The notes under the pieces are model-generated. The model had not been told where the DNA came from. It worked only from the letters and a program-made list of their open reading frames with translations, and searched no databases. Positions 34,048 through 50,015 of a DNA stretch of 64,000 bases are shown here, one piece after another; the first letter of the stretch is position 1, and every line of letters begins with the position of its first letter. The stretch spans positions 1-64,000 of the forward strand of contig BMTG01000021.1 in NCBI GenBank assembly GCA_014649555.1, in the 5' to 3' direction. A program made the translations under genes and the position numbers. This stretch comes from Streptomyces globisporus. GTDB taxonomy: Bacteria > Actinomycetota > Actinomycetes > Streptomycetales > Streptomycetaceae.

Positions 34048-34089
34048 CATAGCAAGCATACAGTGCTGGGCCCGAGAGGAGCGCCCGCC

Positions 34090-35919
34090 GTGATGCGGAA
34101 CGAGCTGAAGACGACTGATCTCATACAGGTGGAGCAACATCTGCGCGAGATCTCCGACGGAAACGTCGTCCGCGTCACCGAGGAAGGTCCGACTTTCGGG
34201 CATCCGTACCGAGTCCGCACCGTGCGCCGGACCACCTTCGTGGCCGCACTGCCTGCACGCGCCAGGAGGACTCTGTGCGTCATCGCCGTGGGCTGGGCAG
34301 CATCCTTCATCTGGTTCTGGCTCTGGTGGCTGCAACCTGAGCACCGCGCGGGCTGGGCCGGACTTGTCGTCAACAGCCTGTTGCTGCTCTACCTCACCGG
34401 CATCCCGGCCTACTTCTTCGTCACCGCTCTGCGGCTCCGCCGGGTCAATCCGGCCCTGCCGGTGCCTCCGCTGCCGGTCGCCTTCGCCGTGACCCGGGCG
34501 CCGTCCGAGCCGTGGCCGACCGTCCGTCACACCCTCGAAGCCATGCTGCTCCAGGACTACCCGCACGACTACGACGTCTGGCTCTGCGACGAGGACCCCT
34601 CCCAGGAGATCGAACAGTGGTGCCGACAGCACCATGTCCAGCTGTCATGCCGACGCGGTGTGGGCCCGTACCACCGGGCGACATGGCCTCGGCGCACTCG
34701 CTGCAAGGAAGGCAATCTCAGCTACTTCTACGACCACTGGGGCTATGCGCAGTACGCCGTCGTCGCCCAGCTCGATTGCGACCACGTGCCCGCTCCCACG
34801 TATCTCGCCGAGATGGTCCGGCCCTTCGGCGATCCCGCGATCGGCTATGTCGCCGCTCCCAGCGTCTGCGACGCCACGGACGGAGTTTCGTGGGCGGCGC
34901 GCGGGCGGCTGCACCGCGAGGCGATCTGGCACGGTGCGGTTCAACTGGGGCACAGTGACGGACTCGCCCCGATGTGTATCGGCTCCCATTACGCGGTGCG
35001 CACACGGGCCCTACGGGACGTCGGAGGTCTGGGGCCCGAGCTCGCCGAGGACTTCTCCACCACTTTCCTCCTGAACTCCTCGGGCTGGAACGGTGCCTTC
35101 GCCATCGACGCGGAGGCGCACGGGGACGGGCCGCTGACCTTCGCCGACATGGTGACGCAGGAGTACCAATGGTCCCGGAGCCTGACCACCATGCTGCTGG
35201 GCCTGCTGCCGCACCATCTCGGACGACTGCCCCTGCTCCTGAGGCTGCGCTTCGGCTATGCCCTGGCCTACTACCCCCTTCTCGGCCTGATGATCGTCTC
35301 CGGGCTGCTCCTCCCGCCGATAGCGGTGATCACGGGACTGCCGTGGATGAACGTCAACTACTTCGACTTCCTTCTGCACTTCTGGGTCATGCCCGTGTGG
35401 CTGCTCCTGACCCTGTCGCTGCTGCGCCACAGGCAGCTGATGCGTCCGCGCAACGCGCCTCTCATCAGCTGGGAGACATGGCTGTTCGCGCTCGCCCGCT
35501 GGCCGTTCGTCATCTGGGGGCTGCTCGGCGCGGTACGCCAGAAGGTCCGACCACGTCCGGTGACGTTCAAGGTCACCCCCAAGAACACGGGTGGGCCCCG
35601 CCCTCTTCCTGCTGTCCTGACGATGCCGTTCGCCGCCATTGCCGTACCCCTGGCCTCCGTGGCCCTCTACGGCGAACTGAACAGCCCGGCGGCCGGCTAC
35701 GTCTTCCTCTGCATCATCGCCGCGACGGCCTACGCGACAGTCGCTCTCGCCGTTCCCGTCCTGCACGTCCGGGAGGTGGCCAAGGCGTCGGACATGCGCT
35801 TCACAGACGCCATGGGGACCGCTCGGCTCCCCCTCGCACTCGGTGTGGTGTGCGCGGTACCCGTCCTGGTGTCGATCGTCCTCTATCCGGCCTACGCGGC
35901 CGCCGTCCTGGGCTGGTGA
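34090..35919 (+). CDS. Processive family 2 glycosyltransferase (cellulose-synthase-like)
   Basis: A 609-residue membrane synthase. Two hydrophobic segments precede a GT2 domain, and further segments follow. Catalytic positions can be read: Asp167 in LCDEDPSQE, D229-C-D231 in QLDCDHVP, and the general base Asp321 in LAEDFSTTF. The acceptor-binding Q(Q/R)xRW is replaced by Q357-EYQW361-SR. No PilZ domain is present, so c-di-GMP, if it acts, does so elsewhere. It should polymerise a UDP-sugar and extrude the chain. The start GTG 34090 follows AGGAG. It heads an operon with UDP-sugar genes. Confidence 0.85.
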   Translation: MMRNELKTTDLIQVEQHLREISDGNVVRVTEEGPTFGHPYRVRTVRRTTFVAALPARARRTLCVIAVGWAASFIWFWLWWLQPEHRAGWAGLVVNSLLLLYLTGIPAYFFVTALRLRRVNPALPVPPLPVAFAVTRAPSEPWPTVRHTLEAMLLQDYPHDYDVWLCDEDPSQEIEQWCRQHHVQLSCRRGVGPYHRATWPRRTRCKEGNLSYFYDHWGYAQYAVVAQLDCDHVPAPTYLAEMVRPFGDPAIGYVAAPSVCDATDGVSWAARGRLHREAIWHGAVQLGHSDGLAPMCIGSHYAVRTRALRDVGGLGPELAEDFSTTFLLNSSGWNGAFAIDAEAHGDGPLTFADMVTQEYQWSRSLTTMLLGLLPHHLGRLPLLLRLRFGYALAYYPLLGLMIVSGLLLPPIAVITGLPWMNVNYFDFLLHFWVMPVWLLLTLSLLRHRQLMRPRNAPLISWETWLFALARWPFVIWGLLGAVRQKVRPRPVTFKVTPKNTGGPRPLPAVLTMPFAAIAVPLASVALYGELNSPAAGYVFLCIIAATAYATVALAVPVLHVREVAKASDMRFTDAMGTARLPLALGVVCAVPVLVSIVLYPAYAAAVLGW

Positions 35920-35963
35920 GCGCGATGACCTCCGCAACGGTTTCTCAGCAAGGAAGCGTGCCC

Positions 35964-37019
35964 ATGAACGCACCTTCCACGATCCTGGTCACCGGTGGAG
36001 CCGGCTTCATCGGCTCCCACGCCTGCGCCGAACTCCTCGACCACGGCTACGAACTGATCGTGGTCGACAACTACTCCAACAGCACCCCTCAAGTCTTCGC
36101 CCGCGTGGAGAGGATCGCCGGCCGATTCGTCGGCACCGTGTACGAGCTGGACATCCGTGATCGGCACGCCCTTTCGGCAGTCTTCGACCGCCACTCTGTG
36201 GACGCTGTCGTACACTTCGCCGCTCTGAAGGCCGTCGGCGAGTCGACGCGGATGCCGGTCGAGTACTACGACACCAATGTCGGCGGGACGACCACCCTCC
36301 TGCGGGCGATGCACGAGCACGGGGTACGCCATCTGGTGTTCTCCTCGTCGTGTTCGCTCTACGGCGACGGCGACGGCGGGCCGCTCAGCGAGGGTGCGCC
36401 CGTCCGGCCCACCAACCCGTACGCGGCTTCCAAGGCGGCGTGCGAAAAGGTCCTCGCCGATGTCTGCCGGCGGGTTCCCGGCTTCACCGTGCTGTCACTG
36501 CGGTACTTCAACCCCGTCGGCGCGCACCCCAGCGGGCTGCTCGGGGAAGAGCCCCGCGGGACGCCGGACAACCTGATGCCCTATCTGGCACAGGTCGCCA
36601 TCGGGAAGCTCGATCGCCTGCACGTGTTCGGCGACGACTGGGCGACCCCCGACGGGACAGCCGTCCGCGACTACCTGCACGTCATGGACACCGTCGAAGC
36701 CCATCGCATCGCGCTGGAACACCTCGGAGACAGTCCGGGAATGCACGAGTACAACCTCGGTGTCGGCAAGGGAAGCTCGGTGCTGGAGGTCGCCGCCGCC
36801 TTCGGCGAAGCGTGCGGCAGGCCCATCCCCTACGACATCGCGCCCCGCCGCCCCGGCGACGTGCGCGAACTCGTCGCCGACGCCACCGCCGTAGCACGCG
36901 ACTGGGGCTGGCGGCCCACGCGGAACCTCGCCGACATGTGCCGGGACGCGTGGCGGTTCCAGCGACTCAACCCCTCGGGCCATGCCGGTTCTGCCCGGCA
37001 GGCCGACCGAAAGAAGTGA
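35964..37019 (+). CDS. galE: UDP-glucose 4-epimerase
   Basis: A 351-residue extended SDR. The NAD motif is ILVTGGAGFIGSHACAELLD; the catalytic region has VFSSSCSLYG and the Tyr-X3-Lys motif in NPYAASKAACEKV; RDYLHVMDTVEAHRIALEHL is a GalE landmark. It interconverts UDP-glucose and UDP-galactose (or the N-acetyl forms), feeding the synthase upstream. ATG 35964 was chosen for its AAGGAAG site; an in-frame ATG 13 codons earlier lacks one. It lies 44 bases after the synthase gene and 4 before ugd. Confidence 0.9.
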   Translation: MNAPSTILVTGGAGFIGSHACAELLDHGYELIVVDNYSNSTPQVFARVERIAGRFVGTVYELDIRDRHALSAVFDRHSVDAVVHFAALKAVGESTRMPVEYYDTNVGGTTTLLRAMHEHGVRHLVFSSSCSLYGDGDGGPLSEGAPVRPTNPYAASKAACEKVLADVCRRVPGFTVLSLRYFNPVGAHPSGLLGEEPRGTPDNLMPYLAQVAIGKLDRLHVFGDDWATPDGTAVRDYLHVMDTVEAHRIALEHLGDSPGMHEYNLGVGKGSSVLEVAAAFGEACGRPIPYDIAPRRPGDVRELVADATAVARDWGWRPTRNLADMCRDAWRFQRLNPSGHAGSARQADRKK

Positions 37020-37023
37020 CGTC

Positions 37024-38343
37024 ATGCGGATGACAGTCATCGGTACCGGATACGTCGGAACAGTGCACGCTGCGTGCATGGCCGCGATGGGCCACGAGGT
37101 CCTCGGTATCGACGTCGACGCCGATCGAATCGCCTCCCTGGCCGCAGGCCGCGCACCCATCCGAGAGGCGGGTCTGGACGAACTCCTGGCCCGTACGGTC
37201 AAGTCCGGACGGTTGCGTTTCTCCACCTCCCTCGCCGAGGGCGCCGCCTTCGCGCGAACGCACTTCGTGTGCGTCGGCACCCCGCAGCGCCCCGACGGCG
37301 AAGCCGCGGATCTACGGTGCGTCGACGCCGTCACGGACGAGCTGGCACGGCATCTGCGGCCCGGCAGCCTGGTCGTGGGTAAGTCCACCGTGCCGGTCGG
37401 CACCGCGGCCCGGCTCGGCCGGCGGATCGCAGCCGTCGTCCCGGACGCCGAGGTCGCCTGGAACCCGGAGTTCCTGCGTGAAGGCTCGGCCGTTCAGGAC
37501 TCCATGCGGCCCGAGCGCATCGTGGTGGGTGTGACCTCGGCACACGCCGAGTCCGTCCTGCGGACGCTGTACACCCCCCTGCTGCGTGCGGGCGCCGTCT
37601 TCTTCAGTACCGACACGGCCACGGCGGAGCTCGTCAAGGTTGCCGCCAACTCCTTCCTGGCCACGAAGATCTCCTTCATCAACGCCATGGCGGAGGTGTG
37701 CGACGCTGCCGGGGCGGATGTCACGGTCCTTGCGGCAGCCGTAGGCGCCGACTCGCGGATCGGCGAGCTTTTCCTCGAACCCGGGCTGGGCTTCGGCGGG
37801 AGCTGCTTCCCCAAGGACATCAGGGCTTTCGCGGCCCGCGCCGAGGAGATCGGCGCAGGCGAGGCGGTGGCGTTCCTGCACGAGGTCGACCGGATCAACA
37901 CCCGCCAGCGGGAGCGTACGGTCAGCCGGGCAAGGCGCCTGGTCGGCGGGTCCTTCGCCGACCGCCGGGTCGCGGTCCTGGGCGCCTCCTTCAAACCCGG
38001 CAGCGACGACGTGCGGGACTCGCCGTCCCTCGCTGTCGCTGCGTCCGTGGCACGGGAGGGGGCCACCGTGCGGGTGCACGACCCGCAAGCCCTCGACAAC
38101 GCGCGCGCCGCGCTCCCCGATCCGACGTACACCCTCGACATCCCCAAGGCCTGCGAGCAGGCGGATCTGGTGCTGCACCTCACGCCGTGGCCCGAGTACC
38201 AGCAGATCGACCCCCGCGCACTCGTCCCCGTCGTGCGACACCCCGTACTGCTGGACGCCAGGAACAGTCTGGACGCCCGACCCTGGCGTGCGGCCGGCTG
38301 GTCCCTGCACGCGCTGGGCGACCCCACGGGAGGCACATCATGA
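37024..38343 (+). CDS. ugd: UDP-glucose 6-dehydrogenase
   Basis: A 439-residue NAD-dependent dehydrogenase. The dinucleotide motif is MRMTVIGTGYVGTVHAACMA; the signature GKSTVPVGTA and EFLREGSAVQD follow, and the catalytic cysteine is in GLGFGGSCFPKDIRAF. It oxidises UDP-glucose twice to UDP-glucuronate in the cytoplasm. Its stop overlaps the ATG of the decarboxylase gene (ATGA), which uses its product directly, so flux to UDP-xylose appears built in. Confidence 0.95.
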   Translation: MRMTVIGTGYVGTVHAACMAAMGHEVLGIDVDADRIASLAAGRAPIREAGLDELLARTVKSGRLRFSTSLAEGAAFARTHFVCVGTPQRPDGEAADLRCVDAVTDELARHLRPGSLVVGKSTVPVGTAARLGRRIAAVVPDAEVAWNPEFLREGSAVQDSMRPERIVVGVTSAHAESVLRTLYTPLLRAGAVFFSTDTATAELVKVAANSFLATKISFINAMAEVCDAAGADVTVLAAAVGADSRIGELFLEPGLGFGGSCFPKDIRAFAARAEEIGAGEAVAFLHEVDRINTRQRERTVSRARRLVGGSFADRRVAVLGASFKPGSDDVRDSPSLAVAASVAREGATVRVHDPQALDNARAALPDPTYTLDIPKACEQADLVLHLTPWPEYQQIDPRALVPVVRHPVLLDARNSLDARPWRAAGWSLHALGDPTGGTS

Positions 38344-39350
38344 AAGTCCTGGTCACCGGCGGGAGCGGATTCGTGGGGTCCCACCTGTGCGAGGCGCTGC
38401 TCCTCCGGGGTGACTCCGTGTGGTGCCTGGACAATTTCTGCACAGGCGAACCGGAGAACACAGCCCATCTCAGCGCGGACCCCCGTTTCCGGCTGCTGCG
38501 GGCCGACGTGACGTCGGCACTCGACATTCCCGGCCCCGTGGACGTCGTAGCTCATCTGGCCAGTCCTGCGTCCCCGCCGGACTACCACCGGCTGCCGCTG
38601 GAAACCCTGTCGGCGGGAGGGCGGGGCACGGAGAACGCGTTGCGCCTGGCCCAGCGCCGAGGCGCGCGCTTCGTACTGGCCTCCACCAGCGAGGTCTACG
38701 GCGACCCCGAGACCCACCCCCAGCCGGAGAGCTACTGGGGCAACGTCAATCCGGTCGGCCCGCGCAGCGTCTACGACGAGGCCAAGCGGTACGCGGAGGC
38801 GATGGCGATGGCGTACCGCCGCAGTCTCGGCGTGGATGTGGGCATCGTCAGGATCTTCAACACCTATGGGCCACGGATGCGCCCCTACGACGGCCGCGTG
38901 GTGTCCACGTTCGTGCGGGAGGCTCTCGCCGGCTCTCCTCTGACCGTCTACGGGGACGGCAGCCAGACCCGCAGCTTCTGTTACGTCGATGACCTGGTGC
39001 GCGGCATCACAGCGATGATCGACCACCCCGGGCTCAGCGGTCCCGTCAACCTGGGCAACCCGGCGGAGCGTACTGTCCGGGAGCTCGCAGACCTTGTGCT
39101 GGCGATCACCGGATCCCGCTCCGGAATCGAGTACCGCCCGCTCCCCGTCGACGACCCCACCCGGCGGCGTCCAGTCATCACGCGCGCCCGTGAGCAGCTC
39201 GGCTGGGAGCCGCTCGTCCCGGTCGACGACGGACTGCGGCGCACCGCTGACTGGTTCATCGCCCACTCTTCCTCTCCATGGCGCGGCCCCGGGACGCAAC
39301 AGCCCTCCGCAGGGCCGCGCCCCCTCCATCCTCAGACGGCGGAGGCCTGA
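38340..39350 (+). CDS. uxs: UDP-glucuronate decarboxylase (UDP-xylose synthase)
   Basis: A 336-residue extended SDR beginning MKVLVTGGSGFVGSHLCEAL. The UXS-type signatures HLASPASPPDYHRLPLETL, STSEVYGDPETHPQPESYWG, the Tyr-X3-Lys of YDEAKRYAEA, and GDGSQTRSFCYVDDLVRGI are all present. It converts UDP-glucuronate to UDP-xylose by oxidation, decarboxylation and reduction with bound NAD. It is coupled to ugd by ATGA overlap and is four bases from the next gene. A bacterial polymer containing xylose or glucuronate is implied. Confidence 0.88.
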   Translation: MKVLVTGGSGFVGSHLCEALLLRGDSVWCLDNFCTGEPENTAHLSADPRFRLLRADVTSALDIPGPVDVVAHLASPASPPDYHRLPLETLSAGGRGTENALRLAQRRGARFVLASTSEVYGDPETHPQPESYWGNVNPVGPRSVYDEAKRYAEAMAMAYRRSLGVDVGIVRIFNTYGPRMRPYDGRVVSTFVREALAGSPLTVYGDGSQTRSFCYVDDLVRGITAMIDHPGLSGPVNLGNPAERTVRELADLVLAITGSRSGIEYRPLPVDDPTRRRPVITRAREQLGWEPLVPVDDGLRRTADWFIAHSSSPWRGPGTQQPSAGPRPLHPQTAEA

Positions 39351-39354
39351 TCCC

Positions 39355-40995
39355 ATGCGCGGCTCGACCACGACCGCTGTCGCCGCCGCGGCCCTCCTTC
39401 TCGCCGCGAGCGGGTGCGGCGCCACGCCGCACTACGAACCTCCGTCCGCCACGTACTACGTCGCTCCCGGCGGCGACGACCAGAGCTCCGGCACCTCTCC
39501 CGGCGAGGCCTGGCGCACCCTCGCCAGGGCGGAACGTACGGGGCTGGCACCGGGTGACAAGCTGTTGCTGGAGGGCGGTGCCCGGTTCTCAGGCACGATC
39601 ACCGTGGGCGAGGAAGAGGCCGGTGCCGCGGACCGGCCGGTGACCGTCGGCTCGTACGGCGGGGGGCGGGCGACGGTCGCGGCGACGAACAGCCCCGGAA
39701 TCTCCGTGTACAACACGGCCGGGGTGGAGATCCGCGACGTCAAGGTGACCGGAGCGGGACGTTCCTACACGCAGGAGGGGGGCATCAACATCTACAGCGA
39801 TCGCGAGGACGGTGCGAAGCTGGACCGGGTGACGGTCGCCGATGTCGAGGTCTCCGGTTTTCGGGCGGGTATCGCGGTGGGCGGCACCGAGTCCGGCTCC
39901 GGTTTCCGCGATGTGACGGTGCGACAGGCCGAGGTGCACGGCAACAAGGATGTCGGGCTGCTGACCTACGGTCCCCGGTTCGACGCCGACAAGCCCGCCT
40001 ACGCGCACCGCGACATCCGCATCGAGGGGGTGGAGGCGCACCACAACACGGGCGATCCCGAGCTGACGGAGACGCACTCGGGCAACGGCATCATCCTGGG
40101 CGGCGTACAGGAGGCGACGGTCCGTTCCTCCCGTGCGCACGACAACGGAACGCGCTCGTCGGCCGAAGCCCCGGCAGGACCGGTGGGCATCTGGGCCTAC
40201 GACGCGGCAGATGTCGTGCTGGAGGAGAACACGTCCTACCGCAACCACACCGGCTCGGCGGTGGACGGAGCGGGCTTCGGCCTCGATGCGAACGTCTCCG
40301 GCTCGACGATCCAGAACAACCTGGCGTTCCAGAACGACGGGCCCGGCTACTACGTCTACACGAACAAGAAGAACGGCGCTCACAGAGAGAACACCATCCG
40401 CTACAACGTCGCCACCGAGAACGGGCGCAAACTGCCCGTCAACGGCGCCCTGGCCATCCACGGCCAAGACATCCGGAACCTCAACGTCTACCAGAACACG
40501 CTGGTGATGTCTGATTCCCCCAACGGTCCAGGGCCGGCCGTGCGCCTGAGGGGCGGGCAGTCCGGCGTCACTCTGCGCAACAACATCCTCGTCACCGAGC
40601 GCGCTCCCCTCGTCACCGCCGAGGCTGACCTGCGGCCCCGCGACGTGGTGATGCAGGGGAACGACTACTTCGAGCCGACGGGCTCGTGGCGCATCGACTG
40701 GGACGAGCGCACATTCCCCGATCTGGACGCGTGGCGGACCGCAACAGGGCAGGAACGAGCCGATGGCCGGTCCACCGGGCTGGCTGTCGACCCGTGCTTC
40801 GCCGGCGGCGCTCTGCCGGACATCCGCTCCGCGGCGGATGCACGCCTGATCGTGCCCGACTGCGCCGCACTCGCGGGCAAGGGCCTCGACCTGCGGCGCC
40901 TCTTCGGCACCGAGGCGGGCACCGTCGACTACTTCGGCAGAACGGTCGGCACACCGCCTCCCATCGGCGCTGCGGTCCCCCCGGCTTCGGAATAG
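39355..40995 (+). CDS. Secreted right-handed parallel beta-helix lipoprotein
   Basis: A 546-residue protein. The signal peptide ends in a lipobox (LLLAASGCGA), so it should be attached to the outer face of the membrane. The rest is Asn/Gly-rich with many short strands (ISVYNTAGVEIRDVKVTGAG, GFGLDANVSGSTIQNNLAFQ, NVYQNTLVMSD), the pattern of right-handed parallel beta-helix polysaccharide lyases, hydrolases and epimerases. No catalytic site could be assigned. As last gene of the sugar operon it probably trims or modifies the exported polymer. Confidence 0.8.
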   Translation: MRGSTTTAVAAAALLLAASGCGATPHYEPPSATYYVAPGGDDQSSGTSPGEAWRTLARAERTGLAPGDKLLLEGGARFSGTITVGEEEAGAADRPVTVGSYGGGRATVAATNSPGISVYNTAGVEIRDVKVTGAGRSYTQEGGINIYSDREDGAKLDRVTVADVEVSGFRAGIAVGGTESGSGFRDVTVRQAEVHGNKDVGLLTYGPRFDADKPAYAHRDIRIEGVEAHHNTGDPELTETHSGNGIILGGVQEATVRSSRAHDNGTRSSAEAPAGPVGIWAYDAADVVLEENTSYRNHTGSAVDGAGFGLDANVSGSTIQNNLAFQNDGPGYYVYTNKKNGAHRENTIRYNVATENGRKLPVNGALAIHGQDIRNLNVYQNTLVMSDSPNGPGPAVRLRGGQSGVTLRNNILVTERAPLVTAEADLRPRDVVMQGNDYFEPTGSWRIDWDERTFPDLDAWRTATGQERADGRSTGLAVDPCFAGGALPDIRSAADARLIVPDCAALAGKGLDLRRLFGTEAGTVDYFGRTVGTPPPIGAAVPPASE

Positions 40996-41068: not shown

Positions 41069-44000
41069 ATGCCTGTGGCCCGGAATCGAGCACTGATGGT
41101 CGGCTTCGCCCTCATCGTGGCCGCCCTCACCTCGGGCTATCTGATGTGGCCTGCTGCCCACGCCCCCCTGTGGGCGATGATCGGTGTCGCCGGCGTGGTG
41201 GCGATCCTGGTCGGCGTGCGGGTCAACCGGCCCGACTGCCGCTGGCCGTGGTGGGTACTCGCCGCCGCGCTCCTTCTCTTCGCCACGGGCGACACGTTCT
41301 ACAACGTGACGGAGGCGTACTTCTCCGCGTCGAACCCGTTCCCGTCCCCCGCTGACGCCTTCTACCTCATGACCTACCCTCTCTTCACCGTGGGACTGCT
41401 CGGTCTGGTGCACAACCGCATGGCGGGCCGTGACGTGCCGGGGATGCTGGACGCGCTGATCATCACGGCCGGACTGGCCCTTCCGGTCTGGGTCTTCCTG
41501 GTGCAACCACTCACACAGGCCGACGGGCTGACTTGGGAGCAGCGTGCGATCAGCATCGCTTATCCACTCGGTGACGTCCTCGTCCTGGCCCTGCTGGTGC
41601 GACTGCTCACCCTCGGCTCCGCACCGAGCCGGAACCGGTCCCTGCACCTTCTGGTTCTCGGCACGCTGACGCTCCTCTGCTTCGACATCGCGTACGGGAT
41701 TCTGCAACTCAGCGGCACCTGGCAGGCGGGCACCGTGCTCGACAGCGGATGGGTCTTCTTCTACACCGCCTGGGGCATGGCGGCACTGCATCCCTCCATG
41801 GCCGAACTGACAACGCGGGAGCACCGTCAGGAGTCGCTGGTCCCGCCGACCGGCCGGTTGTTCCTCCTGTCCGGCACCGTCCTGATCGCTCCCGGCATCC
41901 TGCTCTACGAGGGGCTTCGTGGCAGAGCCGAGGATGCCTCCGTGATCGCCGCCTTCTCCGGGATTCTGATCCTGCTGGTCATCCTGCGGCTGACGGGCAT
42001 GATCGTGGCCCATCGCAAGGCCGTGGCCAGAGAGGTCGCCCTGCGGAACGCGGCAGCCTCACTGCTGGCGGCGGTGAGCGCACAGGAGATAACCCGGTGC
42101 TGTGACCGCACCGTGGACGCACTGTTCGGTTCCCGGCCCGTCGAGCACGCGAGCATGCTCTTGTCAGCCGACGATGCCCAGGACACGCAAGCCGACACGA
42201 GACCCGGTACGCCCCCCGTCGGCCGCTTGCGGGACACACGGACGGGCCAGGTTCCCCCGGGGCAGCCGACCGAACTGTTCACCCGTCGATCCCGCTTGAT
42301 GCCGATCTCACGGCTGGGCCCAGGCATCACCGCCGCGCTGGGACGCCTGAGCACCGTTCTTGTCTGTCCGACCGTCGGATCCGACCGGCCCGACCGTCCC
42401 GACAGCGCAGACGTGCCGGGAATACTTCTGACCGCAGGGCCCGTGAAGCGGCTCGGCGAAATGCGCAGTTCCCTGGAGATCCTTGCCTCACACGCAGGAC
42501 TCGCACTGGGACGAGTCGCCCTGCGCAAGGAGATCATCCGGCAGGAGAGTGAGGCGTACTTCCGCACGTTGGTGCGCAATGCCTCGGACGTGATTCTCAT
42601 CGTCGCGTCCGACAACACCGTCCGTTACGCGAGCCCATCGGCCCGGTCCGTTTTCGGAGAGGTCAAGCTGCTCGGTACCACACTGCACGAGCTGATGCAC
42701 GAGTGCGACCGGGCCCGGGCGGCCCGGCTTCTGGCCATGGTGCGGAACGGGAAACAGGGAGAGGCCCAGGACCACTGGCACATCCCCAACGGCAACGGCA
42801 CCCTCGAAGTAGAGGTGAGCTGCCGCGACCTGCGACAGGATCACACCGTGCAAGGGCTCGTCGTCACCCTCCGGGACGTGACGGAGCAGCGTCAGCTGGA
42901 ACACGAACTCACCCAGCGGGCATTCCACGATCCGCTGACCGGCCTGCCCAACCGCATGCTGCTGCTGGAGCGGATCGAGCGAGCGCTGCTGCGCGGCCGC
43001 CGTGAATCGACCCTGACGTGCGTGCTGTTCATCGACCTCGATGACTTCAAGATCGTAAATGACAACATGGGCCACTCCTCCGGGGACCAGCTACTCAACG
43101 CGGTGGGTGTCCGGCTCACCGAAACCGTTCGACGCACCGACACGGCCGCGCGCCTGGGCGGCGACGAGTTCGCCGTACTCATGGAGGGCGCGAAGGAGCC
43201 CATCGACGCCGAACTACTGGCCGCTCAGATCGTCCAGAGCCTCAACCGCCCGTTCCGGCTACCGGACGGCTCAGTTGGTATATCGGCGAGTGTGGGCGTG
43301 GCGACGGCGATGGACAGTGCGGACAGCGAGGAACTACTGAGCCACTCCGACTTGGCGCTCCGTGCTGCCAAGGCGGGGGGTAAGCGCCAGTGGCGGCGCT
43401 TCCAAACCCGGCTACGGGTCCGCATGATCGAACAGCACGACCTGCGGGCGAGCCTCGATTCGGCGATCGTCCAGAAGGATTTCGCGTTGCGCTACCAGCC
43501 TGTCGTGGACCTCAGGGGTGGTCACATCGTCGGTTTCGAGGCGCTCGCTCGCTGGCCACACGCCCGGCGAGGGCTGGTTCCGCCGCAGCAGTTCATCGCA
43601 CTCGCCGAGGAGACCGGCCACATCATGCCTCTCGGCACCTGGGTACTGGGCAAGGCAACCGGCGACATCGCGGCCCTGCAGCAGGCCGCCGGAAGGGACC
43701 CTCCCTATGTGAGCGTCAATGTGTCGGCCCGTCAGTTTCGCGACCCGGACTTTCTGGACGAGGTCTGCGGAGTGCTCACCACACCCGGACTCTCCCCGGG
43801 GTCGCTCCAGCTCGAGCTCACCGAAACCGTCATGCTGCGCTGGGACGGCCAGGTCGAGTCGGTCATGCAGTCCCTCAAGGACCTGGGCGTACGCATCGCC
43901 CTCGACGACTTCGGCACCGGCTTCTCCTCGCTCCGCTATCTCAGGGAACTGCCCATCGACGTGCTGAAGATCGACAAGTCGTTCATCGACGAGATCACGA

Positions 44001-45556
44001 CGGATTCTCAGCAGGTGGCGCTCGTGGAGGGCATCGTTCACATCGCTGACACGCTCGGCCTCCAGGTGATCGCCGAGGGGATCGAGGATGCCGGGCAGCG
44101 CGATCTGCTGGCCCATATGGGCTGTCGGTACGGGCAGGGTTTTCTCTATGCCCGCCCGATGACCGCCCGACAGAGCGCGTCGTTGCTCCAGCGGCCCAGG
44201 CGAAGTTGGCGGACGGAGGCGAGCGAGCCGCATCGTGGGACAGCTCGTCGGGGCTCTGTCGGCCCTGTTGAAGATCCGAGTGCCGGAGAAGGGAGCAGCA
44301 CGATGCCCGACATCACCACATCGATCATGAAGGCCCGACGGGATCAGCGTTTGAGCGACCTGGAACATCTTCGGCGAACCAGCCCCATGAGCGACGCGGT
44401 CCTCGACGAGGTGCAAGGCCGCCACATACGGTGCGGAGACCGGTGGCTGATCGACTTCGCCTCCTGCAACTACCTGGGGTTCGACTGCGATCCCGAGATC
44501 ATTGGTGCCATCGAACCCGCCGTGCGGCGCTGGGGCACCCACCCGAGCTGGTCGCGGTTGCTCGGCAGCCCGCGCATCTACCCCGAGATAGAGGAGCGAC
44601 TCGCCGCGCTTCTCGAGGCCCCGGACACCTTGCTGCTGCCGACGGCGACCCTGATCCATGCCTCGGTGATCCCGGTTCTCGCAGGCTCGGGGCACGTGTT
44701 CGTCGAGGCGACTGCCCACCGGACCGTGTACGACGGTTGCGTGGCCGCCCGCGGGCAGGGGGCGACCCTGCAGCGGTTCCGTGGCGACCGGCCCGACCAA
44801 CTCGACGCCCAGCTCGGGGCAGTGCCGCCCGGATCCACACGGCTGGTCTGTCTGGACGGCGTGAACAGCATGAGCGGCAACATCCCGGACGTGCCCCGGC
44901 TGGCGGCGATCTGCCGGAACCGCGGCGCCACCCTGTACCTCGACGACACGCATGGGTTCGGGATCGTCGGAGAGCGACGCGGCGACGAGCTGTGTCCGTA
45001 CGGGGCGCGCGGGAACAGTGTGGTCCGGCACACCGGGGAAACCTACGACGACATCGTGCTCGTCGGCGGCTTCTCCAAGGCGTACTCGTCGCTGCTCGCC
45101 TTTCTGGCGCTCCCCACCCCCCTCAAGGATCTGTTGAAGATCGCGGCGGGCCCCTACCTGTATTCCGGGCCGTCACCCACTGCCTCGCTGGCGACAACAC
45201 TCGCCGGCCTCCAGGTGAACGAGCGCCGTGGCGACGCCATTCGCGCCGACGTGTACCGCAAGACGGCCAAGGTGCTCGACCATGTCCACGGCCTCGGCAT
45301 GGCGACGCCCAACACCGACGGGCTGCCGATCGTGGAGATCGTGCTGTCGGACGCGTCGGACCTCGACGCGGTGGCCGACTTCCTGTGGGACAGCGGGATC
45401 TACGTCACCCTGGCCGCTTACCCTCTCGTGCCCCGGGACCGTGTGGGCTTCCGGGTACAGATCACAGCGCTGAACTCCGATGACGACATCGACCGGCTCA
45501 ACACCGCGCTCACGGCGCTCTGCGAGCGTTTCGCCGTACTGCGGCCGGGGAGCTGA
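41069..45556 (+). CDS. Membrane PAS-GGDEF-EAL protein, frame continuous with an oxoamine synthase
   Basis: The frame opens at ATG 41069 behind GGGAGGCGG and has no stop until 45556, 1,495 codons. Residues 1-330 hold about eight to ten membrane segments, a GAF-like stretch follows, then a PAS domain (YFRTLVRNASDVILIVASDN). Gly-Gly-Asp-Glu-Phe is at 697-701 (RLGGDEFAVLM) and Glu-Ala-Leu at 824-826 (FEALARW), with EAL residues LTETVML and DDFGTGFSSLRYL intact, so both synthesis and breakdown of c-di-GMP are possible. Beyond residue 1045 a linker leads into an alpha-oxoamine-synthase domain that also has its own start (separate entry). Whether the cell makes a fusion, two proteins or both cannot be told. 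Confidence 0.8.
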   Translation: MPVARNRALMVGFALIVAALTSGYLMWPAAHAPLWAMIGVAGVVAILVGVRVNRPDCRWPWWVLAAALLLFATGDTFYNVTEAYFSASNPFPSPADAFYLMTYPLFTVGLLGLVHNRMAGRDVPGMLDALIITAGLALPVWVFLVQPLTQADGLTWEQRAISIAYPLGDVLVLALLVRLLTLGSAPSRNRSLHLLVLGTLTLLCFDIAYGILQLSGTWQAGTVLDSGWVFFYTAWGMAALHPSMAELTTREHRQESLVPPTGRLFLLSGTVLIAPGILLYEGLRGRAEDASVIAAFSGILILLVILRLTGMIVAHRKAVAREVALRNAAASLLAAVSAQEITRCCDRTVDALFGSRPVEHASMLLSADDAQDTQADTRPGTPPVGRLRDTRTGQVPPGQPTELFTRRSRLMPISRLGPGITAALGRLSTVLVCPTVGSDRPDRPDSADVPGILLTAGPVKRLGEMRSSLEILASHAGLALGRVALRKEIIRQESEAYFRTLVRNASDVILIVASDNTVRYASPSARSVFGEVKLLGTTLHELMHECDRARAARLLAMVRNGKQGEAQDHWHIPNGNGTLEVEVSCRDLRQDHTVQGLVVTLRDVTEQRQLEHELTQRAFHDPLTGLPNRMLLLERIERALLRGRRESTLTCVLFIDLDDFKIVNDNMGHSSGDQLLNAVGVRLTETVRRTDTAARLGGDEFAVLMEGAKEPIDAELLAAQIVQSLNRPFRLPDGSVGISASVGVATAMDSADSEELLSHSDLALRAAKAGGKRQWRRFQTRLRVRMIEQHDLRASLDSAIVQKDFALRYQPVVDLRGGHIVGFEALARWPHARRGLVPPQQFIALAEETGHIMPLGTWVLGKATGDIAALQQAAGRDPPYVSVNVSARQFRDPDFLDEVCGVLTTPGLSPGSLQLELTETVMLRWDGQVESVMQSLKDLGVRIALDDFGTGFSSLRYLRELPIDVLKIDKSFIDEITTDSQQVALVEGIVHIADTLGLQVIAEGIEDAGQRDLLAHMGCRYGQGFLYARPMTARQSASLLQRPRRSWRTEASEPHRGTARRGSVGPVEDPSAGEGSSTMPDITTSIMKARRDQRLSDLEHLRRTSPMSDAVLDEVQGRHIRCGDRWLIDFASCNYLGFDCDPEIIGAIEPAVRRWGTHPSWSRLLGSPRIYPEIEERLAALLEAPDTLLLPTATLIHASVIPVLAGSGHVFVEATAHRTVYDGCVAARGQGATLQRFRGDRPDQLDAQLGAVPPGSTRLVCLDGVNSMSGNIPDVPRLAAICRNRGATLYLDDTHGFGIVGERRGDELCPYGARGNSVVRHTGETYDDIVLVGGFSKAYSSLLAFLALPTPLKDLLKIAAGPYLYSGPSPTASLATTLAGLQVNERRGDAIRADVYRKTAKVLDHVHGLGMATPNTDGLPIVEIVLSDASDLDAVADFLWDSGIYVTLAAYPLVPRDRVGFRVQITALNSDDDIDRLNTALTALCERFAVLRPGS
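44303..45556 (+). CDS. Alpha-oxoamine synthase-family PLP enzyme (internal start in the GGDEF-EAL frame)
   Basis: An internal ATG at 44303, seven bases after AGGGAG, begins a 417-residue fold-type I PLP enzyme similar to 8-amino-7-oxononanoate synthase, serine palmitoyltransferase and CqsA. Features: IDFASCNYLGFDCDPEIIGA, the PLP-stacking His in EATAHRTVYDG, Asp-Asp-Thr-His at 214-217 (LYLDDTHGFGIVGERRG), and Lys259 in GGFSKAYSS, which should bind PLP. The family condenses an amino acid with an acyl thioester. The methyltransferase gene starts eight bases after its stop, suggesting a two-step product. The ribosome site argues for separate synthesis; the lack of a stop upstream permits a fusion. 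Confidence 0.78.
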   Translation: MPDITTSIMKARRDQRLSDLEHLRRTSPMSDAVLDEVQGRHIRCGDRWLIDFASCNYLGFDCDPEIIGAIEPAVRRWGTHPSWSRLLGSPRIYPEIEERLAALLEAPDTLLLPTATLIHASVIPVLAGSGHVFVEATAHRTVYDGCVAARGQGATLQRFRGDRPDQLDAQLGAVPPGSTRLVCLDGVNSMSGNIPDVPRLAAICRNRGATLYLDDTHGFGIVGERRGDELCPYGARGNSVVRHTGETYDDIVLVGGFSKAYSSLLAFLALPTPLKDLLKIAAGPYLYSGPSPTASLATTLAGLQVNERRGDAIRADVYRKTAKVLDHVHGLGMATPNTDGLPIVEIVLSDASDLDAVADFLWDSGIYVTLAAYPLVPRDRVGFRVQITALNSDDDIDRLNTALTALCERFAVLRPGS

Positions 45557-45563
45557 GCAGCAG

Positions 45564-46313
45564 ATGGTGAAGCGTGTGACCCGCAATGACGACGTGGACT
45601 GGGACAGCTGGCCGGTCCAGGACTACCTCGCGGAGAACTACCGCGATCTGCATCCGTCCGACGCGGCCGTGATCGCGCATCACAGCGCGGTCTATCGCGG
45701 CATCGAGGCGGACAGCGCCGCTCGTACGGTCGAGTTCGGGGCAGGGCCGAACCTCTATCCACTCCTGCTCGCCGCGGCCGCGAGCCGTCGGATCGACGCG
45801 GTCGAGGCAAGCGCCGCCGGGGTCCGGTATCTGGTCGGACAGATCACCCGCAGGCCCGACGCCAGCTGGGAGCAGTTCCATGCTTTGTGCCGGGAGCTGA
45901 ACCCCGACTTGCCTCCGACGCTGCCCGAGGCCCTCGCCGCGGTCAACGTCGTCCACTCGGACGTGCGGAACCTGAAACCCGGCACCTATGACATCGCTTC
46001 GATGAACTTTGTCGCCGAAGGAGTCACCGAGGACTTCACCGAGTTCGCGGACTTCTGCCGCCGCTTCGCGCACTCCGTTCGGCCCGGCGGACGACTGATC
46101 GCAGCCTTCATGGAGAACATGCCGACGTACCGGATCGGCCCGGCGTCGCAATGGCCCGGCTGCCCGATCGATCCCTCGGTCGTCACCGCGGTCTTCGCGC
46201 CGCTGACCGATGACCTGCAGGTCACACGGATCGGCGCCGACGCCAGCCTGCCGGACTACGGTGACTCCGGAATGGTGCTGCTGTCCGGTCTCAGGCGCAT
46301 GCCTCCGGGGTGA
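45564..46313 (+). CDS. SAM-dependent methyltransferase, NNMT/PNMT/TEMT-like
   Basis: A 249-residue protein starting MVKRVTRNDDVDWDSWPVQD. The N-terminal YLAENYRDLHPSDAAVIAHH segment and the SAM motif ARTVEFGAGPNLYPLLLAAA, then IDAVEASAAGVRYLVGQIT, resemble the nicotinamide/phenylethanolamine N-methyltransferase group. FVAEGVTEDFTEFADFCRRF continues the fold. It lies eight bases after the oxoamine synthase and could N- or O-methylate its amino ketone product; this is inference. Its 3' end overlaps the convergent GH15 gene by 23 bases. Confidence 0.75.
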   Translation: MVKRVTRNDDVDWDSWPVQDYLAENYRDLHPSDAAVIAHHSAVYRGIEADSAARTVEFGAGPNLYPLLLAAAASRRIDAVEASAAGVRYLVGQITRRPDASWEQFHALCRELNPDLPPTLPEALAAVNVVHSDVRNLKPGTYDIASMNFVAEGVTEDFTEFADFCRRFAHSVRPGGRLIAAFMENMPTYRIGPASQWPGCPIDPSVVTAVFAPLTDDLQVTRIGADASLPDYGDSGMVLLSGLRRMPPG

Positions 46314-48099
46314 CGCCCGCCCGCTGCAGGGCGAACGCCGACTCCACCAGTGCGATGTGGCTGAAAGCCTGGGGGGTGTTGCCCATGTGGCGGTGGCGTA
46401 CCGGGTCCCACTGCTCCGAGAGCAGTCCGACATCGTTGCGTACGGCGAGTACTCGCTCGAACGCCTCTCGTGCCCGGCCTCGCTCGCCCATCGCCGCGAG
46501 CGCGTCTGCGTACCAGAGCGAACATGCGACGAAGGTGCCCTCGCCGCCGCGCAGGCCGTCCACACCATGCACCCCTCCGCCGCCCTCTTGGTAGCGTCGC
46601 ACGAAGCCGGCCTGGTCCAACTCACGCATCGCAGCGATGGTGCTTCGCACCCGGAAGTCGCAGGGGCGGAGGAAGCCGAGCTTGGGCATCAGCAGTGAGG
46701 ACGCGTCGAGGGCGGACGAACCGTAGGACTGCACGAAGGAACGGCGCACGGGGTCCCATCCCATCCGGCACACCTCGGCGTGGACGGCATCCCGCAGAGC
46801 CCGCCACGGACCCGATGATTCGGTTCTGCCCAGGAGAGCCCCGATGCGCAGCGCTCTGTCGGCCGCGACCCACGACATGACTTTGGAATGGACGAAGTGC
46901 CGTCGCGGGCCACGGACTTCCCAGAGGCCTTGGTCGGGCTCACGCCAATGCTCACGCAGATGGCTCATCAGCGCATTGACCAGGCTCCACATGTGCTCCT
47001 GCAGCGGTATGCCCGCGCGAAGCGATCTGTAGAGAGTGTCGAGGACGGCTCCGTACACGTCCAGCTGGAACTGGCCCGCGGCGGCGTTCCCGAACCGTAC
47101 CGGGCGTGCTCCTTCGTACCCCGGCAGCCAAGGGGCCTCGGTCTCAGGAAGGCTCCGCTGCCCTTCTATGCCGTACACCGTCTGCAGGCCGGCGGGCCCG
47201 CCGGCGACGGCTCGCAACAGCCAGTCCAGCCATGCGGCGGCCTCGTTCCTGTATCCGCTGCGCAGCAGGCACGACAGGGTGAGGGTGGAATCACGCAGCC
47301 AGCAGTACCGGTAGTCCCAGTTGCGTTCTCCCCCCAGATGTTCGGGGAGGGAAGCGGTCGGCGCGGCGACGATGCCGCCCGTGGGAGCGTAGGTGAGCGC
47401 TTTGAGCGTGATCAGCGAGCGCACCACGGAGTCGCGCCAGGGGCCCTGATAGCGGCATTGAGCCGCCCATTCCTGCCAGAAGTCGCGGGTCTCCTTCAAC
47501 GCGGTCTCCGGGGGAACGCACAGCGGAGCGGGCATCTCGCAGAGATGGGAAGGAGCCCACGCGAGCATCAGAGTCAGCCTGCGCCCCGCGGTCACGGTGA
47601 AATCAACGACAGTGGAGCCGGACCGGCGTACTCCTTGCCCCGCGTCGTCAGCACGCTGCCAAAGAGAGTCCGGCCCGGCGACGGCCACCGTGCAGGCACC
47701 GGCGCTGCGCACCCACGGGACGACCCGTCCGTGGTTGAAACGAGGTCTCAACTCGCTGCGCACCCTCACACAGCCTGACTGGCCCTCCACCGTGCGCACG
47801 ACGCACGGGAACCGGGTACGTGGCGGCATGAAGTCACTGACCCGAACCGTTCCGGAGTCGGTCTCCCACCAAGTGTCCAGGATAAGGGTGCCGTCTCGAT
47901 AGGCTCGACGGGAGCATTGCTCCGCGCCCACCGGTGCGACACGCCAAAAGCCGTTGTCGTCGGTGCCGATCAGGGAAGCGAAGCATGCGGGGGAATCGAA
48001 GCGCGGAAGGCAGAGCCAGTCGATCGCCCCATCCTGGGCGATCATGGCAGCGCTTTCGAGGTCTCCTATGAGGGCGTAGTTCTCGATTGGTTTACTCAT
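46291..48099 (-). CDS. Glycoside hydrolase family 15 (glucoamylase/trehalase-like)
   Basis: A 602-residue enzyme starting MSKPIENYALIGDLESAAMI, with no signal peptide. The N-terminal beta-sandwich carries AMIAQDGAIDWLCLPRFDSP; the (alpha/alpha)6 barrel holds ERNWDYRYCWLRDSTLTLSC and the C-terminal VGLLSEQWDPVRHRHMGNTP with the second catalytic Glu. Cytoplasmic actinobacterial members include trehalases and glucoamylases; substrate not resolved. It is transcribed toward the methyltransferase and overlaps it tail to tail. Confidence 0.88.
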   Translation of the reverse strand: MSKPIENYALIGDLESAAMIAQDGAIDWLCLPRFDSPACFASLIGTDDNGFWRVAPVGAEQCSRRAYRDGTLILDTWWETDSGTVRVSDFMPPRTRFPCVVRTVEGQSGCVRVRSELRPRFNHGRVVPWVRSAGACTVAVAGPDSLWQRADDAGQGVRRSGSTVVDFTVTAGRRLTLMLAWAPSHLCEMPAPLCVPPETALKETRDFWQEWAAQCRYQGPWRDSVVRSLITLKALTYAPTGGIVAAPTASLPEHLGGERNWDYRYCWLRDSTLTLSCLLRSGYRNEAAAWLDWLLRAVAGGPAGLQTVYGIEGQRSLPETEAPWLPGYEGARPVRFGNAAAGQFQLDVYGAVLDTLYRSLRAGIPLQEHMWSLVNALMSHLREHWREPDQGLWEVRGPRRHFVHSKVMSWVAADRALRIGALLGRTESSGPWRALRDAVHAEVCRMGWDPVRRSFVQSYGSSALDASSLLMPKLGFLRPCDFRVRSTIAAMRELDQAGFVRRYQEGGGGVHGVDGLRGGEGTFVACSLWYADALAAMGERGRAREAFERVLAVRNDVGLLSEQWDPVRHRHMGNTPQAFSHIALVESAFALQRAGVTPEACA

Positions 48100-48444
48100 G
48101 ATCGGAATACGCCGTCGAACACAAGCCGCTCCCTTCATTTTACGGCATCTCACGCTTTCGCCCCCCTCCCACTGACCGGCCGGCCCGACCTCAGCGAGGC
48201 GTTCGTCGGCGCCTTCCTCACCGATGACGCCATGCCCCTGGCCAGTCAAAGCACCCCGTCCGGACAAAGAGCCTATTGAGGTTCAGACTGGAACCGCAGG
48301 GTCATCGCGCAATGGAGCGTAAGCACGGGTGCCTGTTGCGGAAGGACCGGGGTCGATCACCGTAGAGCGCAGAGGAGACATGAGGAGCGTCGACTGCGCA
48401 GCGGGGCCCAACGGGCCCGTACCTGCGAGAGAGGAGTCGCGGCC
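48100..48444. other. 345-bp divergent promoter region between GH15 and phosphatase genes
   Basis: No gene. Both genes point away from it, so it should hold two promoters; no confident boxes or repeats were identified. Confidence 0.5.
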
Positions 48445-49683
48445 ATGACCCGTCGCCCGAGCGATCTTCCCCGGCTGCTGACAGCGGCGGAGACGGCAGC
48501 GCCGGTTGAGGCCGTGGCCGTGGTCGCGGAAGATCTGCGCAGGCGTTTCGCGGCTACAAAGGTCTCGTTCCTCATCGTGGATCTGACCGGCAGAGCGCTC
48601 GCGCGGCTCTCCACCGCCACCGCCACGGGCAGCGACGGGGAAACGGAGCGGATCCCTCTGTTCGGAAGCGTCTACGAGCAGGTGATCCGCACCCAGCGGC
48701 CGCATCACGAGCCCGCCGGACAAGAACAGCGGGTAATCGTTCCTGTGACCAACCGGGGGGACGCGATCGGCCTGCTCGAACTGCTCCTGCCGGCCGGCAG
48801 GAGCGAGGAAGAGGTTGTCCTAGCTGTCGGGGAAGCCGCTCACGCGCTGGCCTACGTCGTGATCGCCAACGGGCGCTTCACCGACTTCTACACCTGGGGC
48901 AAGCGCTCCAGACCTCCGACTCTGGCAGCGGAGATCCAGTATCAGCTGCTTCCACAGGCACTGTCCTGCGAGGCCGCGCAGTTCACTCTGAGCGGGAGTC
49001 TGGAGCCCTCCGAGGACCTCAGCGGCGACACGTTCGACTACGCGCTGGACCGCGACACCCTGCACCTGTCGGTGACCGACCCCATGGGCCATGACCTCGA
49101 CGCAGCCCTGGCGGCCACCGTCCTGGTGGGTGCGCTGCGCAGAGCCCGCCGCGCCGGAGCATCCCTCGCCGAACAGGCCCGTCAGGGCGACCAGGCCCTG
49201 ACCAGCCACGGACAGGGCCACGCCACCGGACAACTGCTGCGCATCAACCTCCACACCGGAAGAACCGAGCTCGTCAACGCCGGCCACCCCTGGCCCCTGC
49301 GCATGCGTGCAGGCTTGGTGGAAACCGTTCCCTGCCAGGTCGACCAGCCTTTCGGGCTGGCCGTCGTCTCACCCCGGCCCTACCGCGTCCAAACCCTGGA
49401 CCTGCGCCCCGGAGACCGGCTCCTCATGCTGACCGACGGCATGCTCGAACGCCACGGAGAGAAGGTCGACGTGGCTGCCCTGCTGCGGCAGACCCGCAGT
49501 CTGCACCCACGCGAGACCACGCTGATGCTGACCTCCGCCGTCCGCGACGCCGCAGGCGGCCGCCTCGAAGACGACGCCACTGTGGTGTGCCTGGACTGGC
49601 ACGGCCCGCAAGAAGACCACCGCCACGTCAGCTCCGGCGCGGACACCCACCAAGCCTCAGCCGCCCGCCCACCCAACCGCTGA
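48445..49683 (+). CDS. SpoIIE/PP2C-type serine phosphatase with N-terminal sensor domain
   Basis: A 412-residue protein from ATG 48445, behind GAGAGAGGAG. The N-terminal 150 residues resemble a GAF-type sensor (EDLRRRFAATKVSFLIVDLT). The C-terminal PP2C domain has EIQYQLLPQALSC, metal-binding Asp in EDLSGDTFDYA and DPMGHDLDAAL, INLHTGRTELVNAGHPWPLR, LLMLTDGMLERHG and LEDDATVVCLDW. Such phosphatases dephosphorylate anti-anti-sigma factors in partner-switching pathways. No cognate kinase or antagonist is next to it, though an RsbW-like remnant occurs at 19.6 kb. Its target is unknown. Confidence 0.88.
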   Translation: MTRRPSDLPRLLTAAETAAPVEAVAVVAEDLRRRFAATKVSFLIVDLTGRALARLSTATATGSDGETERIPLFGSVYEQVIRTQRPHHEPAGQEQRVIVPVTNRGDAIGLLELLLPAGRSEEEVVLAVGEAAHALAYVVIANGRFTDFYTWGKRSRPPTLAAEIQYQLLPQALSCEAAQFTLSGSLEPSEDLSGDTFDYALDRDTLHLSVTDPMGHDLDAALAATVLVGALRRARRAGASLAEQARQGDQALTSHGQGHATGQLLRINLHTGRTELVNAGHPWPLRMRAGLVETVPCQVDQPFGLAVVSPRPYRVQTLDLRPGDRLLMLTDGMLERHGEKVDVAALLRQTRSLHPRETTLMLTSAVRDAAGGRLEDDATVVCLDWHGPQEDHRHVSSGADTHQASAARPPNR

Positions 49684-50015
49684 CCGCGCCACCACCGCCC
49701 GACCCACCGACTCAACGACGTTGGCGTTGTCGACGTTCGTGGGAGTCCGCCCGTACGGCAGCCGTGAAAAGAAGGCCCCCACGCCCCAGCCTCCGCTGAA
49801 CACGCGGCACGGACTCGACGAACGTGCATCGGCAGAATTCATGGAGTCAGGCGTCCCCGTGGCGCGAACGGACCGGCCGAGATGCGCCCGCCGAGCATTC
49901 GTGGTCACCTGACGTTACGGGCACCACTTCGCTACGGCCTCGTCCCGAGGGACCCACTACGGCCGCCGGCAACGCGTCCCTCCCCAAGTCCACCGAGCCC
50001 ATCCGGAGACGGCTG
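49684..50015. other. 332-bp interval upstream of the sigma factor gene
   Basis: An open frame extends upstream from the sigma gene through this region, but its sequence has no family resemblance and is probably non-coding leader. Nothing else stands out. Confidence 0.45.

Follow-up and report, generated by a model that had tools for sequence, protein, structure and literature searches.

A membrane GGDEF-EAL protein and an alpha-oxoamine synthase form a gene pair, fused in many Streptomyces, that is probably a c-di-GMP-linked module of actinobacteria

In most Streptomyces loci that have the pair, a membrane protein with PAS, GGDEF and EAL domains and a pyridoxal phosphate (PLP)-dependent enzyme of the alpha-oxoamine synthase (AOS) fold are encoded in one uninterrupted reading frame, and at the level of the family this fusion is, as judged from comparison of the sequences, both real and selected. 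The pair is probably a c-di-GMP/AOS module of actinobacteria, fused in many Streptomyces, in which synthesis would be tied to local c-di-GMP. Here, we describe the copy found in a 64,000-nucleotide stretch of Streptomyces globisporus DNA (the window), referring to its membrane PAS-GGDEF-EAL part as the GG half, and set it beside its relatives in the genus and beyond.

In the window, 1495 codons run without a stop from 41069 to 45556 on the forward strand, placing the protein with multiple transmembrane (TM) segments and PAS, GGDEF and EAL domains in the same frame as the AOS-fold enzyme, with the GG half at residues 1-1078 and the PLP enzyme at residues 1079-1495 in a Pfam scan (Table 1). An initial annotation of this DNA had described a single stop-free frame with intact GGDEF (697-701) and EAL (824-826) motifs and an internal ribosome site and start, all of which is as stated, GGAGAAGGGAG at 44285-44295 preceding the ATG at 44303. 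Catalytic residues are present in all three enzymatic domains, GGDEF, EAL and AOS.

Table 1. Features of the module and of its surroundings in the window
Feature	Position	Strand	Basis
GG half, membrane PAS-GGDEF-EAL; N-terminal TM region first	41069..44302	+	Pfam, hydropathy
PAS domain (residues 497-609)	about 42557-42895	+	Pfam
GGDEF domain (residues 618-773)	about 42920-43387	+	Pfam
EAL domain (residues 794-1030)	about 43448-44158	+	Pfam
Linker, EAL-domain end to AOS core, 192 nt, open; takes in the first 22 codons from ATG 44303	44177..44368	+	
52 nt absent in the S. anulatus orthologue L035	44224..44275 (place approximate)	+	Pairwise alignment
Shine-Dalgarno-like GGAGAAGGGAG, before the internal start	44285..44295	+	Sequence inspection
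AOS-fold PLP enzyme, 417 aa from internal ATG; H139, D215, H217, K259, R384	44303..45556	+	Pfam, NCBIfam, profile and fold matches
SAM-dependent methyltransferase, start 7 nt past the AOS stop	45564..46313	+	NCBIfam score, flank comparison
Polysaccharide-type genes: GT2-like glycosyltransferase, GalE-like epimerase, UDP-glucose dehydrogenase, epimerase, beta-helix protein	34063..40995	+	Pfam; GalE-like gene by tblastn only

The GG half is predicted to carry both diguanylate cyclase and phosphodiesterase sites for c-di-GMP. The GGDEF and EAL profiles (PF00990 and PF00563) match the window protein at 139.5 and 248.1 bits against cut-offs of 23.8 and 31.3, respectively, an I-site RxxD lies at 688-691 (R688/D691), and the EAL domain has all of E824, N884, E919, D946, D947, K970, E1003 and Q1023, which we take to be its catalytic residues. 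Across the 110 loci compared, the GGDEF motif positions are kept in 109-110, and GGDEF, I-site and EAL residues as a whole in 102-110, K970 being replaced by R in eight. A simple hydropathy scan at a strict threshold gives seven N-terminal TM segments, a number that may in truth be higher.

The C-terminal part of the 1495-codon product matches Pfam Aminotran_1_2, and a profile of it finds, among solved structures, ThAOS (1.8e-49), serine palmitoyltransferase (SPT; 5.5e-46), and KBL and BioF to about 1e-35, the best matches being ThAOS 8s1y/7poa and SPT 3a2b/8guh. The predicted model has a pLDDT of 85.3 and aligns to the ThAOS, SPT and BioF structures at a TM-score of about 0.8. H139, D215, H217 and R384 occur in all 110 loci and K259 in 106, residues whose roles we take to be those of the AOS stacking His, Asp, His, carboxylate-binding Arg and Schiff-base Lys; together with the type I PLP fold these five place the protein in the AOS superfamily, and profile, fold and residues thus agree with the initial annotation, which had called it a PLP enzyme of the oxoamine-synthase family. 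Its narrower label, a CqsA/SPT-like enzyme, is not supported, both curated cut-offs being missed. Indeed, none of the 11 NCBIfam models that match the AOS (among them BioF, SPT, KBL, ALAS and CqsA) reaches its cut-off: BioF scores best, at 163.1 bits against 426.45, and SPT gives 151.5 against 500. Assignment as a CqsA-type autoinducer synthase was considered and rejected, NF005526 reaching 55.7 bits against 428. The subfamily has a motif of its own, WGTHPxWSR, present in 108 of the 110 loci, and a relaxed version of it recurs in 46 of 50 distant ones. From the fold and catalytic residues, the likely reaction is one in which an amino acid and an acyl thioester yield an alpha-amino ketone. The PLP lysine is missing from four fused loci (L053, L073, L103 and L109, with Q, Q, R and N in its place), the frame being otherwise open, so that AOS activity is evidently not always needed. 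A search of a plasmid collection gave 490 records, all below 60% identity; among the 15 matches listed, identities are 28.6-30.2% and the annotations are BioF or aminotransferase.

Relatives were gathered from a genus sample, in which 68 of 392 genomes carry a close AOS, and from a named genome collection with 65 AOS loci. The 133 records, less 17 duplicates and three without one half at threshold, make 113 distinct loci, from which three were dropped to leave 110: L093, with reversed order, L164, with stops in the AOS, and L165, which is truncated. The latter two, both from Streptomyces, are broken AOS sequences that lie beside GGDEF-EAL sequence. The 96 loci of the Streptomyces side comprise the window's genus and one metagenome-assembled genome (MAG), L079; the other 14 come from other actinobacteria. 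A locus was called fused if both halves share a frame with no stop between them. A long open frame was not accepted as evidence by itself, because GC-rich DNA lets the AOS frame run on by chance, as in L094, where it extends for 1701 aa and the GG half sits in another frame.

By this definition, 85 of the 110 loci with both halves in this order are one stop-free frame (Streptomyces and one actinomycete MAG), and 25 are split, namely 11 in Streptomyces and all 14 elsewhere in the actinobacteria. The initial annotation had named a stop before the internal ATG in every orthologue as the mark of two ordinary genes, and this is not what the 85 loci have. Openness of the linker is in itself weak evidence, since stops occur in only 17 of 85 fused linkers in each of the two other frames, so that such a linker is stop-free about four times in five; likewise, stops alone are a weak signal, being present in five of the 90 loci with in-frame linker length and in 17 of 85 when the other frames are read. 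The length of the linker is more telling. It is divisible by three in 90 of the 96 Streptomyces-side loci, 85 of those 90 also being stop-free, and on a quick, midpoint-rooted AOS tree, where change counts are rough minima, these 96 loci have undergone at least 60 changes of linker length and only about five changes of frame class; free drift would alter the class in two of every three length changes, or about 40 times. The 14 other loci have 12 length changes and five frame-class changes, with remainders of 0, 1 and 2 in three, eight and three loci, and among the 25 split linkers taken together the remainders number 8/8/9. Two earlier counts made within the 85 fused loci, of no stops in 4551 codons and of 52 length changes all divisible by three, were discarded as true by selection; the count over all 96 loci, which replaced them, leads to the same conclusion.

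The linkers of the fused loci also look like coding sequence, the in-frame coding composition being the best of the three frames in 84 of 85 and GC at the three codon positions standing at 0.813/0.662/0.884. In 71 of the 85, no Shine-Dalgarno-like start (at least four matching bases) lies at -80 to -30 of the AOS core. It is the keeping of frame class through many changes of length, together with this coding composition, that leads us to regard the fusion as a real and selected property of the family. An AlphaFold model of the fused region (882 residues of L050, 20 rows) was poor, with a pLDDT of 58.8 and a pTM of 0.39.

The fused state is not fixed, changing to or from the split one at least seven times within the 96 Streptomyces-side loci. 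At the split junctions of L038, L039, L045, L046, L094 and L099 the two genes meet in ATGA or TGATG overlaps, which are typical of translational coupling, and a start near -66 of the AOS core is seen repeatedly in split and in some fused loci. The module probably began as neighbouring genes, one for a membrane c-di-GMP sensor with cyclase and phosphodiesterase and one for a PLP-dependent synthase of AOS type, an operon being taken as ancestral because all 14 non-Streptomyces loci are split, on a tree rooted at its midpoint only. On the Streptomyces side, indels would then have turned the junction of the coupled pair into one frame, with some later splits, and the result would be one protein, anchored in the membrane, that combines sensor, diguanylate cyclase, phosphodiesterase and synthase.

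The window's own copy has to be judged separately from the family. Its AOS falls in a group of four with L035 (S. anulatus), L038 and L039 (SH-aLRT 97), the other three of which are split, leaving the window copy as the only open one. There is an even chance that in this genome the halves are made as two proteins, by translational coupling within an operon, and that a 52-nt indel in high-GC DNA opened the frame by accident. The closest relative, L035, has its halves put out of frame by exactly this clean indel, upstream of the ribosome site; L038 and L039 are split with TGATG junctions; the Shine-Dalgarno sequence and ATG 44303 are retained, many split and some fused loci likewise having a start placed about -63 to -75 relative to the AOS core; and the window linker is compositionally flat (codon-position GC of 0.641/0.625/0.672), ranking 79 of the 85 fused loci by in-frame margin of coding score, when any frame of such a linker has about an 80% chance of being free of stops. 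On the other side, the AOS tree assigns the same number of changes to an ancestral fusion kept in the window, with two splits, as to one split and one re-fusion, and fusion is also seen in the near relatives L036 and L037, which likewise keep an internal start with a Shine-Dalgarno sequence. Separate translation in the window strain thus appears about as likely as fusion, and both products may be made. The open frame in this assembly may also be a base error, with no bearing on the family result. What the initial annotation had proposed, a fused or co-translated product, stands for the family, in most Streptomyces loci having the pair; in this genome it may or may not be a fusion.

Beyond Streptomyces, sampling at the level of the class found the AOS subfamily in 36 of 394 genomes, and at the level of the phylum in 25 of 396, counts that include the window genome and others of its genus. 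The distant loci compared number 53, made up of 50 of the 65 non-genus matches listed (10 of 19, 18 of 23 new and 22 of 23) plus L093, L098 and L099. In 45 of the 53, tblastn (E up to 1e-8) places a match of GGDEF-EAL type no more than about 9 kb from the AOS; chance would give about 2%, by simple arithmetic from nine GGDEF-type matches in the 8.25-Mb genome of the window strain itself. The arrangements are diverse: the GGDEF-EAL sequence may lie directly upstream of the AOS, or follow it on the same strand with its domain 1.8-5.5 kb away; it also occurs 2.6-4.6 kb upstream on the same strand, 1-1.5 kb downstream on the opposite strand and, in two loci, upstream on the opposite strand. Among the cases downstream on the same strand, L093 and L205 have the start of the GGDEF-EAL gene adjoining the AOS. 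In L093 (8001-12295) the order is reversed, the AOS being followed directly by the GG half. No GGDEF-EAL match was found in the remaining eight of the 53 loci, six of which have a flank of less than 4 kb on at least one side, with L098 and L240 lacking one despite at least 8 kb on both sides. Other neighbours recur as well. In one distant family (L184, L187-L189 and L222-L239), a gene adjoining the GGDEF-EAL gene is shared by 17 loci, the member scanned in L188 being a leucyl/phenylalanyl-tRNA protein transferase, and a gene beside the AOS is shared by 15, the member scanned in L237 being a methyltransferase of a family other than the window's; a further neighbour, for which a scan of the copy in L095 gave an MFS transporter, recurs in 12 of the 65 loci compared.

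The gene directly downstream of the AOS encodes a methyltransferase in 48 of the 64 loci whose flanks were compared, and in 46 of the 49 on the Streptomyces side. It is related to the SCO2525 family but falls below that family's cut-off (127.1 bits against 240), and a search of solved structures gave no match at E 0.01. In the window, the module is followed (46291-50582) by a minus-strand GH15/trehalase-like gene, a SpoIIE-type phosphatase and an ECF-type sigma factor, and the polysaccharide-type genes upstream are kept in several near relatives. Flank matches among the 64 loci were to galE in 13, ugd in nine, epimerase in eight and beta-helix genes in three. Such neighbours raise the question of whether the AOS is a passenger, brought together with GGDEF-EAL genes by surface-polysaccharide or developmental islands and having no direct functional coupling to them. 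The presence of galE, ugd, epimerase or beta-helix genes beside the module in the window and several near relatives, and of similar polysaccharide-type genes beside other relatives of the GG half, is what such islands would give. We nevertheless consider this improbable, as the galE, ugd and epimerase matches are confined to 13, 9 and 8 of the 64 loci, distant families keep a GGDEF-EAL-type neighbour of the AOS in several arrangements, and a fusion with frame-preserving indels is not expected of a mere passenger.

Paralogues of the GG half have other partners. Those at 58-60% identity have an epimerase or beta-helix gene as neighbour in all four fetched loci, and no AOS was found in the stretches fetched around any of the four. 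For those at about 45-47%, the gene directly after, of about 1090 aa, is of the MbtH-adenylation-PCP-reductase type in each of the 10 loci fetched (L244 and L247-L255, being all ten places at least 76% identical to the query), and in two of the ten a scan gave MbtH, AMP-binding, PCP and NAD_binding_4 (A-T-R) domains. Proteins of A-T-R type release aldehydes, and products with an alpha-amino carbonyl would be a theme common to the AOS and A-T-R partners, if both act as we suppose. Of the lysine-less AOS loci, three (L053, L103 and L109) come from genomes G228, G349 and G253, each of which carries the GG-reductase pair; G099, G114 and G139 have both this pair and an AOS that may keep the lysine. 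Functional replacement, with loss of the AOS lysine in genomes that carry the reductase gene, is offered as a lead only.

These partners bear on a further reading, in which the membrane domain senses the product of the AOS, so that synthase and receptor would share one chain with c-di-GMP as output, as an actinobacterial counterpart of CqsA/CqsS and LqsA/LqsS, which are themselves synthase-receptor arrangements. Several predicted TM helices and a PAS domain in the N-terminal region would suit a receptor, and the pairing of the 45-47% paralogues with a second kind of synthase in all ten fetched loci fits with it; but the enzyme is far from CqsA by score and there are relatives of the GG half with no AOS nearby, and we hold product sensing to be possible though unlikely. 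A broader form of the idea would have this membrane GGDEF-EAL family repeatedly joined to makers of alpha-amino carbonyls, each protein or pair being a device complete in itself, with one part making a diffusible amino ketone or amino aldehyde (or the pyrazine formed from it) and the c-di-GMP part reading or gating it. This we think doubtful; if true, such devices would be an undescribed class of small-molecule signalling in actinobacteria.

The c-di-GMP/AOS module remains our preferred reading, with coupling of the AOS to c-di-GMP turnover suggested by the fusion and by the gene neighbourhood. The AOS would condense an amino acid with an acyl thioester to an alpha-amino ketone, which the methyltransferase may then modify, and either c-di-GMP turnover would gate the synthase or the membrane domain would sense what the synthase makes; in this genome, with its open frame and separate start, full-length fusion and free AOS could both be produced. 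Weighing against the module are the four fused loci without the catalytic lysine, the 58-60% relatives of the GG half with no AOS in the fetched stretches (four of four), the eight of 53 distant loci with no GGDEF-EAL match, the restriction of the AOS to 68 of 392 genus-sample genomes, and the window linker itself, which is not coding-like and whose sister copy is split. The question matters as c-di-GMP controls both development and antibiotic production in Streptomyces, and the conserved physical link of a small-molecule synthase to a GGDEF-EAL enzyme whose two sites are intact provides a concrete, testable candidate for a signal or output. Obligate fusions are, moreover, clean genetic material, allowing single catalytic point mutations within one gene.

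The initial annotation knew of no described example of this pairing, and the open-licence PMC literature likewise yielded no GGDEF-EAL/AOS pair, nor any c-di-GMP enzyme tied to an alpha-oxoamine synthase, 8-amino-7-oxononanoate synthase or serine palmitoyltransferase. Among known c-di-GMP enzymes, the nearest in architecture is CdgF of Streptomyces venezuelae, which is found in the membrane fraction and has the layout 10TM-PAS-PAC-GGDEF-EAL, no key residue missing from either domain (PMC6205966); the GG half is built in the same way. Orthologues of CdgF are taken in PMC6205966 to share at least 45% identity with it. Its function is described as still to be defined (PMC13232838), the signals perceived by the sensory domains of the S. 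venezuelae c-di-GMP enzymes are given as unknown (PMC6205966), and no AOS partner for CdgF is mentioned in the portions of PMC6205966 consulted, the words 'aminotransferase' and 'fusion' being absent from its main text. RmdA, RmdB, CdgA and CdgC of Streptomyces are, like the GG half, composite GGDEF-EAL enzymes of c-di-GMP metabolism, none of them reported, in the portions of the literature consulted, as joined to a biosynthetic enzyme. On the side of the synthase, SPT, BioF, KBL, ALAS and ThAOS share fold and catalytic residues with the window AOS, ThAOS being 26-27% identical to it in structural alignments, and the motif WGTHPxWSR stands where SPT 3a2b has YGTGCAGSR. The alpha-hydroxyketone autoinducer synthases CqsA, LqsA and JqsA belong to the same PLP fold family, solved CqsA chains matching the AOS profile at 6.7e-16, but the window AOS scores far below the cut-off of the CqsA model NF005526 (55.7 against 428 bits). 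CqsA and LqsA work with histidine-kinase receptors, rather than on one chain with GGDEF and EAL domains.
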